This document shows positions 23,711 through 27,387 of a stretch of DNA of 33,267 bases, in pieces. The notes under the pieces are model-generated. The model was not told the origin of the DNA. It searched no databases and was given only the letters and a program-made list of their open reading frames with translations. Source of the stretch: Chthonomonadaceae bacterium (GTDB lineage: Bacteria > Armatimonadota > Chthonomonadetes > Chthonomonadales > Chthonomonadaceae); contig DAIDHN010000045.1 in the NCBI GenBank assembly GCA_027459665.1, positions 1-33,267 of the forward strand. Direction: 5' to 3'. Numbering within the stretch: the stretch's first letter is position 1; each line of letters begins with the position of its first letter. Position numbers and translations under genes: made by a program.

Positions 23711-23746
23711 AAAAAAACAGCGGGAGAGGAAAAACCTCTCCCGCTG
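23711..23746 (-). terminator. Rho-independent terminator of the flagellar operon
   Basis: A perfect 12-bp stem (CAGCGGGAGAGG / CCTCTCCCGCTG) with a 5-nt loop is followed on the minus strand by seven Ts, 11 nt after the fliW stop. It is the strongest terminator in the window. Confidence 0.92.
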
Positions 23747-23756
23747 CACAGCGGCT

Positions 23757-24347
23757 TCAGGCCACGCGTTTCTCTCTGCTGCGCACCGGCGCAAGTGCCG
23801 GCGGGGCCGGAGTGTCGGTGAGTCTCATCAGCAGCTCATCCATCACGCGATGTCGGGTGGTGTACCCTTCATCTTGTACTATCACCTGCTTTCCGCGCCG
23901 CGTCAGCGGATTGATTACCAGCGGTCCAAGCAGATTTGCCGTCATTTCGCGCGGGTTGCCATGTGGTATAGTGACCACTACAAACACCAGGGCGGGCGTG
24001 CTGTGATCCAGGCCAAGAAAGCGCGCATCGCTGTCTGGAATGGTAGGCGAATAGCCAGACCGGAAAATTCCCGGCGATAGCACCGGAAATGCCAGTGAAG
24101 GCTCATCCAGTGACTGCAGCCAGCGAAATGCACTCTGCAAATCAGAGTGAAGCACAGCAAACCGCCGCATCTTCTCAAAGCCAATCATGCCTTCCGGAAA
24201 GGTGATAACCAGGTCCCGCTCTACCTCCAGCGTTCCAAAACGGGTGGTTGGCACCCGTTCCGTCTGGCGCGCTGCAGGCTCCGCCGCAGGATTGCTGTCC
24301 ATCTGTACCTCTATGGTCGGTGTATCAATCCGATTGTCCAGTATCAT
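23757..24347 (-). CDS. fliW: Flagellar assembly factor FliW
   Basis: A 196-residue protein matching FliW, which in Bacillus and Campylobacter binds both flagellin and the RNA-binding regulator CsrA, linking filament secretion to translation. The core runs from TRFGTLEVERDLVITFPEGMI through GFEKMRRFAVL, WLQSLDEPSLAFPV and NLLGPLVIN to QVIVQDEGYTTRHRV. The protein is longer than the usual 130-150 residues: about 35 extra at the N-terminus and 25 at the C-terminus, both rich in Pro, Ala or Arg. The ATG has only a weak GGAAA nearby. csrA, a common neighbour of fliW, is absent here; a terminator follows. Confidence 0.9.
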   Translation of the reverse strand: MILDNRIDTPTIEVQMDSNPAAEPAARQTERVPTTRFGTLEVERDLVITFPEGMIGFEKMRRFAVLHSDLQSAFRWLQSLDEPSLAFPVLSPGIFRSGYSPTIPDSDARFLGLDHSTPALVFVVVTIPHGNPREMTANLLGPLVINPLTRRGKQVIVQDEGYTTRHRVMDELLMRLTDTPAPPALAPVRSREKRVA

Positions 24348-24379: not shown

Positions 24380-25279
24380 TTAGGGGAAATAGTTCAGCAT
24401 GCTCATCTGAAATAGTTTCGAGTTGGCAGCCAGCGCCGCCTGATAGGCAGTCTGCGCACTCTGCAGCTGAATAGATACCTGCGGAATGTTGGCGTCCTCT
24501 ACCTGAGAAAGAAAACTGGTTACGTTTTCCTGAGAAAGAGTGTTTTGCTGCGCCGCCGCCTGCACTTGCTGTATCTTCGCGCCCATATCCGCCTGCGAGG
24601 TAAGGGTGGTATTCAGGGTGTTTTGCAGATTGGCCAGATCTGCGTTGGATATGTTTGAAAGTGCACCAAAACCAACATCATTCTGCAGCTGCTGCAAATT
24701 TTGCAGAGCAGGCAGAAACACTTTGTCGGCGGTGGCGTTTACCGTTATGCTCTGGTTCTGGCTTATCTCCAGATTGATATTGGCATCGCCCGTGGCGCTG
24801 GTGCCGCCCTGATAGGCAAACGAGTTGCTGCTGGTAACTATAGGCTGCGTAGAAGTACGCTGCCCCGAAAAGATGTAGTTGTTGCCATAGCGGGTATTGG
24901 CAAGGCTCACTACCTGGTTGATGATGTCGCCTATCTGCTGCGATATTGAAAGGCGGGTGGCAGAATCAAGCGTGCCGTTGGCAGCCTGTATCGCCAGAGC
25001 CTGCGATTGACGAATGAGCGAGGTCAAACCGCCCAGCGCAGTCTCGCCAGTGGTAAGATAGCTGTTGGCCTGGTTCAATATGCTCGAGTACTGATTAATC
25101 TGGGCGCTCTGCTGCTTGAGGGTAAGCGCCTGGTCCATGCCTGTCGGATTGTCCGAAGGCTGATTGATGCTCAGACCGCTGTCAAGCTGAAGCTGCGCGT
25201 TCTGTATGTTGTAGGCAGTCTGGTTCACGCTGTATATGGCGTAATTGGTCATTTGCAATGTACTGACACGTACGGACAT
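24380..25279 (-). CDS. flgL: Flagellar hook-filament junction protein FlgL (HAP3)
   Basis: A 299-residue protein related to flagellin that forms the second junction layer between hook and filament. The N-terminal coiled segment shows the family pattern (SVRVSTLQMTNYAIYSVNQ, LDSGLSINQPSDNPTGMDQAL) and the C-terminal helix (VEDANIPQVSIQLQSAQTAYQAAL) completes the D0/D1 core. ATG at 25279 with AGGAGG 7 nt upstream; the longer open frame upstream runs into the flgK gap and is not used. It is preceded by a long hairpin with a GGA loop and followed 32 nt later by fliW. Confidence 0.93.
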   Translation of the reverse strand: MSVRVSTLQMTNYAIYSVNQTAYNIQNAQLQLDSGLSINQPSDNPTGMDQALTLKQQSAQINQYSSILNQANSYLTTGETALGGLTSLIRQSQALAIQAANGTLDSATRLSISQQIGDIINQVVSLANTRYGNNYIFSGQRTSTQPIVTSSNSFAYQGGTSATGDANINLEISQNQSITVNATADKVFLPALQNLQQLQNDVGFGALSNISNADLANLQNTLNTTLTSQADMGAKIQQVQAAAQQNTLSQENVTSFLSQVEDANIPQVSIQLQSAQTAYQAALAANSKLFQMSMLNYFP

Positions 25280-25306: not shown

Positions 25307-25357
25307 TGCAAGGCAAAGGCAGGACTTCCGTTTCTCTGCCGGGCGTATTGCCTTGCA
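25307..25357 (-). promoter_or_regulatory. Intercistronic hairpin with GGA loop before flgL
   Basis: Arms TGCAAGGCAA and TTGCCTTGCA (10 bp, perfect) enclose an inner stem GGCAG/CTGCC whose 13-nt loop reads AGAAACGGAAGTC on the mRNA strand. The loop contains ANGGAN, the core of CsrA sites. No T tract follows, so it is not a terminator. The flgL ribosome binding site begins about 12 nt after it. Confidence 0.5.
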
Positions 25358-25367
25358 TCCTGTGCAT

Positions 25368-26822
25368 TTACGGGCCAATGGGCGAAGAGCTGCCCAGGTT
25401 ATTGATCACAATGCTTACAAACGTATCTGCAGTATCCACCACTCGGGCAGCCGCCTCATAAGAGCGCTGGTACTGCAGCATTTTCGTAAGTTCCTCATCC
25501 ATATTCACGCCGGAAATGGAAGACTGCTGGTTTTGCATTTGCAGCAGCACCTGCTGTGTGTTGTTAGAAAGGTTCTGGTAGGTTTGCGTATCAGACCCCA
25601 CCTGAGCCACTGTGTTGTTGTAGTAGCTGCCAATGGTATCGCTGCCCAGCACCGTCTGGTTGGCAAGATTGAACATGGCCGTGGCGTTGTCGCCGTTGCC
25701 GGGCGCAGGGGTAGCAGGCGGCGCAGGCAAGGTGGCGGCGGCTATCTGGGCCGGATTGCTGATGAGCTGCGGGTTCACGGTTATGTCGGCTGCAGCGCCT
25801 GTTCCCGGCGGCGGCGGAGCATTGAAAAAATTGATCCCGGTGCTGCCATCCAGCCCTGCACCAGTAGATTGTATTGAATTTACCTGCGTAATCAGCGTGC
25901 TGGCCAGCGTATCCAGCCGGTTCTGATAACCGGTAATCAGTGAATTGGCTTTCATCAGGCCATACAGCTGCCCGCTTTGCACAGGGACAAAGGTGCCGCT
26001 TGCAGTGGTAACTCCAAATACGCCGTTGTGGGTAGAGGTAGTGGTGGGCAGTGCATTTGTGCCGCTGCCCTGCACCAGGGCAAATCCCCCTACATTTATG
26101 TTGATGGCGCCATCCGTCTGCCCGGTCACCGGGTTCGTCTCATTGGTGGTCTGCACACCCACCAGCTGGCTCAACTGGGTAATCATCTGTCCCCGCTGAT
26201 CCATCAGGTCATTGGGAGTCTGCCCCGAAGCCAGCGACTGCTCTATCTGGCCGTTCAGAGTGGCAATCTGGCTGGCAAGCTGGTTTACCTGCCCCAGTTT
26301 GGCCCCTATCTGCTGATTTATCTGAGGGCCAAGCGAGGTGAGCGCATTGGAAACCGAATGAAACTGGCTGGTAAGCGACTGCGCGGTATCGAGCAGAGTG
26401 GTGCGAAGGCCCATGTCCTGCGGGTTTGCCGACAGCGTGCTGAATGCATTGAAAAAATTGTTGAGCTGTGCCGAAAGGCCTGATGTGCTTGGTTCGCCAA
26501 AAGCGTTCTGCGCCTGGGTAAGCTCTGTGGTCAGAGTATTCTGCGCACTCTGGTCTGAAGTACTTGACCAGATATTCTGGTCAATATACTGGTTGCGAAT
26601 GCGCGTCACGCTGGTCAGGTCTACCCCGGTACCCAGCTGCCCCAGCATAGGCGAACCAATGCCCGGCAGAGTATAGGGTGTTCCCTCGGTAAGGTTCACC
26701 TGCTGGCGCGAGTAGCCGGCGGTGTTCATATTCGAGATGTTGTTTGACGTAACATCCAGGGCGGTCTGATTGGCAGACAATGCGCTTGAGCCAATCTGCA
26801 GCCCGAAGAATGTGGATGGCAT
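25368..26822 (-). CDS. flgK: Flagellar hook-associated protein FlgK (HAP1)
   Basis: A 484-residue protein that forms the first layer of the hook-filament junction. The N-terminal rod-type motif is SALSANQTALDVTSNNISNM-NTAGYSRQ; the C-terminal LQYQRSYEAAARVVDTADTF is the matching HAP1 helix. A central region rich in Pro and Ala (TLPAPPATPAPGNGDN) probably forms the exposed domain. ATG at 26822 is preceded by AAGGAGA about 10 nt upstream and, farther up, by a hairpin with the hexaloop ACGGAT. It is secreted by the flagellar export apparatus, presumably with FlgN from the preceding gene as chaperone. Confidence 0.93.
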   Translation of the reverse strand: MPSTFFGLQIGSSALSANQTALDVTSNNISNMNTAGYSRQQVNLTEGTPYTLPGIGSPMLGQLGTGVDLTSVTRIRNQYIDQNIWSSTSDQSAQNTLTTELTQAQNAFGEPSTSGLSAQLNNFFNAFSTLSANPQDMGLRTTLLDTAQSLTSQFHSVSNALTSLGPQINQQIGAKLGQVNQLASQIATLNGQIEQSLASGQTPNDLMDQRGQMITQLSQLVGVQTTNETNPVTGQTDGAININVGGFALVQGSGTNALPTTTSTHNGVFGVTTASGTFVPVQSGQLYGLMKANSLITGYQNRLDTLASTLITQVNSIQSTGAGLDGSTGINFFNAPPPPGTGAAADITVNPQLISNPAQIAAATLPAPPATPAPGNGDNATAMFNLANQTVLGSDTIGSYYNNTVAQVGSDTQTYQNLSNNTQQVLLQMQNQQSSISGVNMDEELTKMLQYQRSYEAAARVVDTADTFVSIVINNLGSSSPIGP

Positions 26823-26854
26823 TTCTTAATCTTCTCCTTGAGTGTCGGTTGCCA

Positions 26855-26870
26855 AACCCATCCGTGGGTT
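26855..26870 (-). promoter_or_regulatory. ANGGAN hexaloop hairpin before flgK
   Basis: The mRNA strand reads AACCC-ACGGAT-GGGTT, a perfect 5-bp stem with a six-base loop matching ANGGAN, the known CsrA/RsmE recognition loop. It lies about 15 nt upstream of the flgK ribosome binding site, which itself contains AAGGAG. Confidence 0.5.
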
Positions 26871-26883
26871 CGGGGTCTTGTTT

Positions 26884-27387
26884 TCAGGCGTGGCTGTCTA
26901 TATAGAAAGCCGGGTTGACGATTCGGGTGAGATTCGACCCGTAGGCAGGTGTTTGAAGCGCTGTGGCAGTAAGCAGATTGATATGAAATTTGGTAATGTG
27001 CAGTGCATTTTCTATCAGGGTGCGGTTTCTGTTTTGCGCCTGTGCAAGCTGCTGCTGCAGCTGCAGCAGATGGTGGCGCACACGCGCCAAAGGCAGCTTC
27101 TGCCCCGAAGGAAGCGCACCAATGATTTGAAGCAGCCCGCTGGAGGGCGGCAGCTGCACGGCCCAGGCCATGGCGCGCGCTGCAGAAATACGTTCCCGCT
27201 CAAGCCCGCGGCACTGCAGCACAACCGTTTCCTGCTCGGCAATAAGGGCCTGCAGATGCTCAATATCCTGCTCTATTACCGCAGCGCTCTGCGCCTCAGA
27301 CAGTTCCAGCAGCTTCTCTATCAGTTTTGCTTCCTGCTGCAGTATCTGCAGCAGAGGGGTGATATTCACTACTTGCGGACGGGGCAT
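26884..27387 (-). CDS. flgN: Flagellar export chaperone FlgN
   Basis: A 167-residue, mostly helical protein (long Gln/Leu/Glu-rich coiled segments such as LLQILQQEAKLIEKLLELSEAQ and LLQLQQQLAQAQNRNRTLIENAL). Size, helix pattern and place directly before flgK fit FlgN, the cytoplasmic chaperone of FlgK and FlgL. Sequence conservation in this family is low, so context weighs heavily. GGAAAG lies 8 nt before the ATG, and only 5 nt separate it from the rod-binding protein gene upstream. Confidence 0.82.
   Translation of the reverse strand: MPRPQVVNITPLLQILQQEAKLIEKLLELSEAQSAAVIEQDIEHLQALIAEQETVVLQCRGLERERISAARAMAWAVQLPPSSGLLQIIGALPSGQKLPLARVRHHLLQLQQQLAQAQNRNRTLIENALHITKFHINLLTATALQTPAYGSNLTRIVNPAFYIDSHA

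Follow-up and report, generated by a model that had tools for sequence, protein, structure and literature searches.

A conserved hairpin in the flgK leader of the Chthonomonadaceae and its probable role as a two-site CsrA operator

In a flagellar gene run of a Chthonomonadaceae bacterium (Armatimonadota), the leader of flgK is most likely a two-site CsrA operator, at which CsrA would block flgK translation and FliW would relieve the block. A hairpin of the CsrA-binding type is conserved before flgK, so that FlgK, a hook–filament junction protein, is probably subject, like flagellin, to the known CsrA–FliW brake. In the proposed mechanism, a CsrA dimer would dock on an ACGGAT hexaloop in the flgK leader and then reach the GGA of the flgK Shine–Dalgarno sequence, approximately 26 nt further downstream, shutting the ribosome out of flgK. 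FliW, whose gene is the second one downstream of flgK in this run, would bind CsrA and lift the block during flagellin export; synthesis of FlgK would thus follow the cytoplasmic-flagellin signal to which flagellin itself responds. The structure, conservation, covariation and spacing of the flgK leader, the presence of csrA and fliW, and a related flagellin layout in the same genome are seen in the sequence, and from these we infer CsrA binding, repression and FliW relief at flgK.

The window, by which we mean the whole analysed stretch of 33,267 nucleotides, carries on its minus strand the genes flgH, flgI, a rod-binding flgJ-like gene, flgN, flgK, flgL and fliW, in this order. The named sequences closest to its FlgL come from MAGs of the Chthonomonadaceae and Chthonomonadales, which places the window in the Chthonomonadaceae, a little-studied family. 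The relevant features of the window are:

26884–27387, minus strand: flgN, export chaperone for FlgK and FlgL (PF05130, E = 1.7e-19)
26852–26873, minus strand: flgK-leader hairpin CCGAACCC-ACGGAT-GGGTTTGG, loop at 26860–26865; proposed high-affinity CsrA site 1 (sequence, fold, hexaloop scan, conservation and covariation, leave-one-out covariance model)
26834–26839, minus strand: flgK Shine–Dalgarno sequence AAGGAG, overlapping proposed CsrA site 2, CAAGGA (sequence)
25368–26822, minus strand: flgK, hook–filament junction protein (TIGR02492, E = 3.4e-106; FlgK_D1)
25307–25357, minus strand: flgL-leader stem-loop with a 10-bp outer stem, an inner stem and ACGGAA (25326–25331) in a large loop; weak CsrA candidate (fold)
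24380–25279, minus strand: flgL, hook–filament junction protein (TIGR02550, E = 2.6e-56)
23757–24347, minus strand: fliW, CsrA antagonist, last gene of the run (PF02623, E = 6.7e-39)
23717–23747, minus strand: strong terminator-like hairpin and T run just after fliW

The 61-nt gap between flgN and flgK holds the hairpin, then AAGGAG, then the flgK ATG, which begins at 26822 and is separated from the Shine–Dalgarno sequence by 11 nt. The original prediction described an exact ANGGAN hexaloop at this site and understated the structure: the stem (minus strand 26873–26852) has 8 bp, including one G–U, rather than 5 bp, and closes the hexaloop ACGGAT. The loop of this 8-bp stem is of the CANGGANG type. 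Its GGA lies 26 nt from the GGA of the Shine–Dalgarno sequence, inside the established range of 10–63 nt over which CsrA bridges two sites, a hairpin anchor and a Shine–Dalgarno site (PMC7652899). In a hexaloop scan of the window, this is the only ANGGAN hexaloop with an 8-bp stem; first-order Markov simulation predicts 80 ANGGAN hexaloops per 3 Mb with a stem of at least 5 bp, and one with a stem of at least 8 bp. That the hairpin arose by chance, or that it terminates transcription, is hardly credible. Some GGA in a hairpin loop is common, occurring in 20% of flgK-leader shuffles, but strict hexaloops are rare: 2000 dinucleotide shuffles of the flgK leader never matched the observed stem, and an ANGGAN hexaloop of at least 5 bp is absent from all 26 of the more distant flgK leaders. 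The terminator reading was ruled out because no T run lies 3′ of the hairpin. An Rfam scan of the window and of the loci of ten relatives gave no match to a curated RNA family. A search of the genome for the pattern CACGGANG...AGGAG...ATG with a gap limit of 4–10 nt also gave no match, which is uninformative given that the gap at flgK itself is 11 nt.

Leaders of flgK and flgL were taken from relatives in the same order and phylum. The flgK hairpin recurs before flgK in six other sampled Chthonomonadaceae genera, in one case with a bulged stem and in another with a looser heptaloop, and a hairpin is also found in one member of another family:

G010: hexaloop ACGGAG, 8-bp stem
G005: hexaloop ACGGAT, 8-bp stem
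G007: hexaloop ATGGAT, 8-bp stem
G002: hexaloop ACGGAA, 5-bp stem
G004: AGGGAT, one-base bulge in the stem
Genus g2 (G011, G001, G014): heptaloop ACGGATT, stem mismatches
G027 (another family): ACGGAC, 10-bp stem

The imperfect stem of genus g2, and its loop, which is predicted to be less open, count against a CsrA operator. The G027 hairpin may be independent in origin, because the covariance model did not pick it out. Among the hairpin bearers of the family, the spacing from GGA to GGA is 24–26 nt; the exception is G002, at 43 nt, with a further hairpin between the two sites. Covariation with retention of GGA, which had been suggested as a check, is found: pair counts across six leaders reveal both-side changes at three pairs of the flgK stem, while the loop GGA is kept. 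Paired cells make up 83% of the stem alignment versus 71% in shuffles; one shuffle in 500 attains the observed value, and the slid controls fall below it.

Two covariance models were built. The first included the flgK leader of the window and scores it at E = 8.8e-9, a value that is not independent because the sequence is part of the model; its second match in G010 (contig C163) is not before a recognisable gene start. The second, a leave-one-out model, excluded the window's leader and was built from five other genera. Its best match anywhere in the 3.67-Mb genome is this leader (E = 1.0e-5; next match 3.4), which is a further argument against a chance structure, and the model also recovers the unseen flgK leader of G014, whose genus is shared with one training sequence. 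We take the leave-one-out result as evidence of conservation, not of CsrA binding.

The distribution of the hairpin is patchy. It is absent from Chthonomonas (genus g4: G003, G015, G016), where csrA and fliW are present, and from the other members of the order that were tested, G027 excepted; since these lineages lack the hairpin yet possess csrA and fliW, it is not essential to the CsrA–FliW system. A relative from the phylum, G047, has a 5-bp ACGGAG hexaloop around the flgK Shine–Dalgarno sequence. In a tree of FlgK, FlgL and FliW, the hairpin bearers are divided between two groups, one of which has g4 next to it. Support for the backbone is 39–65 at several nodes, and because of this weakness a single gain of the flgK hairpin, lost again in g4, is no more than the simplest interpretation.

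The flagellin genes offer a comparison within the order. Most canonical flagellin leaders examined combine a GC-AGGAN-GC hairpin with the Shine–Dalgarno sequence CANGGAGGA; the two are 22–61 nt apart, the distance being longer where a second hairpin intervenes, and for the longer leaders a three-way-junction fold is predicted from single sequences. There is at least one exception, a flagellin leader termed G007a that has no clear hairpin. In the genome that contains the window, the pattern of the flagellin layout matches only twice, both times in flagellin leaders, and the reversed-pattern control gives 0 matches. The flgK leader shares this plan, though its loop differs in size. A joint covariance model of flagellin and flgK leaders was dropped, the two loop types having aligned out of register. 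The AGGAN-loop hairpin motif of the flagellin leaders (L136 on G000:C54, L162 on G000:C76, and across the order) has no Rfam match, and the layout may be an RNA motif not described before. A third flagellin-like gene (MDFSMVTNLN..., from L094:7389 onwards, G000:C52) is without the canonical leader hairpin; similar paralogues occur in G002, G011, G001, G014 and G004.

Conservation by itself does not name a binding protein, and the flgK hairpin could be a general element of RNA stability or processing, or the site of a protein other than CsrA. We consider this improbable: the C-ANGGAN-G loop is held across most genera while the stem sequence varies, the loop is paired with a Shine–Dalgarno GGA at a spacing compatible with CsrA, and the leader resembles those of flagellin.

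The window has no csrA, as originally observed, and the search elsewhere in the genome yielded a single copy, at G000:C4:15808–15963. It encodes a protein of 77 amino acids whose core aligns with CsrA of solved structures, the best entry being 5dmb, which we take to be the Geobacillus CsrA–FliW complex. R44 aligns with an R of 5dmb. With regard to a C-terminal extension of the FliW-binding type, N55 aligns with an N of 5dmb, in an alignment that stops at residue 63 of 77. Across the order, csrA is present in every genome with FlgL at E ≤ 1e-40, and fliW is detected in all of these except G004, in which a contig break falls inside flgL. Flagellum-less members, for example G008, G022 and G023, gave no match for fliW or for csrA. 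G006, G013 and G009 have csrA, but fliW and flagellin genes were not detected in them; csrA likewise stands without detected fliW in G004 and G014, where flgL is broken or was not found. In the genome under study csrA is apart from fliW and adjoins an isocitrate/isopropylmalate-dehydrogenase-like gene; in several relatives (G007, G010, G003, G025) it comes after fliW, and G027 has a second flgL–fliW–csrA set at C7:1571–3152. The Shine–Dalgarno region of csrA itself (L197, G000:C4) reads CCATGGAGGGC, in which ANGGA overlaps the Shine–Dalgarno sequence, and for this reason CsrA may regulate its own gene.

The original prediction extended CsrA control to both junction proteins, flgK and flgL each being governed through its own leader hairpin. 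For flgL this is doubtful. The gap between flgK and flgL is 88 nt, and its fold beats 97% of shuffles in stability. The 10-bp outer stem, in which TGCAAGGCAA/TTGCCTTGCA pairs 25357–25348 with 25316–25307, is present in the predicted fold, as are the inner stem and the ACGGAA of the inner loop, all as first described. However, 0 bp directly close the ACGGAA, so that its GGA sits in a large loop and not in a hexaloop closed by a stem, and 19% of flgL-leader shuffles have GGA in some predicted hairpin loop. True hexaloops before flgL do exist in G002 (agacggc-ATGGAG-gccgttt, 7-bp stem) and G005 (ATGGAT, 8 bp), and in G007 the flgL Shine–Dalgarno sequence itself is inside a 5-bp ACGGAG hexaloop; the ACGGAA of the window is 52 nt from the start, similar to the 54 and 61 nt of the hexaloops in G002 and G005. 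The nearest genera (G011, G001, G004), by contrast, have no ANGGAN hexaloop before flgL. The flgL-leader structure therefore does not hold up as a conserved CsrA feature, and control at FlgL is supported in some relatives only, namely G002, G005 and perhaps G007. Of the wider claim, the FlgK part stands on comparative sequence: csrA is present and the flgK loop GGA is conserved across most genera, and control beyond flagellin is thereby supported for FlgK. The FlgL part fails for this lineage because the loop GGA is not kept in the nearest genera.

The operon was predicted to end with fliW, and the terminator-like hairpin at 23747–23717, directly after this gene, agrees. Compatible with a two-site operator, although tentative, is the possibility that CsrA at flgK mainly lowers the whole flgK–flgL–fliW message and in this way represses its own antagonist, forming a switch-like circuit. 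The position of fliW downstream in the same run, with the terminator at its end, fits this arrangement, and in other bacteria loss of translation under CsrA often destabilizes the message (PMC7652899). A promoter scan of the minus strand from flgK to fliW, limited to the sigma-70 type, gave no promoter-like site, but fliW has a start region of its own. We consider it rather unlikely that CsrA acts at two tiers, flagellin and FlgK, while also throttling FliW through the flgK–flgL–fliW message, which would make the system a switch-like checkpoint and not simple flagellin homeostasis.

Taken as a two-site operator, the flgK leader is one concrete, conserved candidate for a CsrA target other than flagellin in a lineage that bears FliW, and the CsrA–FliW system is extended to Armatimonadota. 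Whether braking by CsrA determines how much joint protein is made relative to filament protein, or acts back on FliW, thereby becomes testable. A search of open full texts yielded no study of CsrA in Armatimonadota.

Comparison with known systems highlights both similarities and differences. The hag leader of Bacillus subtilis likewise has two CsrA sites, one of them over the Shine–Dalgarno sequence, and FliW antagonizes CsrA in the Hag–FliW–CsrA partner switch (PMC7652899); the described target there is flagellin, whereas here there is a further leader within the operon, ahead of flgK, and csrA and fliW are not neighbours. In Campylobacter jejuni, another user of CsrA and FliW, CsrA has ANGGA-loop binding sites in many flagellar mRNAs and is able to act between the genes of a single message (PMC4894983). 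Unlike the arrangement proposed here, however, flgK mRNA of C. jejuni is not enriched with CsrA (0.7× and 1.0×), which counts against the operator reading, and flgL is enriched at most about twofold (PMC4894983). The glgC leader of Escherichia coli combines an upstream high-affinity hairpin site with a Shine–Dalgarno site, the two being bridged by one dimer (PMC7652899), but the gene and the phylum are different and FliW is absent. The flgK mRNA of E. coli co-purifies with CsrA and is reported as a probable direct target (PMC7652899); the evidence there is a binding survey, and a search for the FliW family gave no match in E. coli. With flgK already reported as a probable CsrA target in E. coli, the Armatimonadota case extends a known kind.
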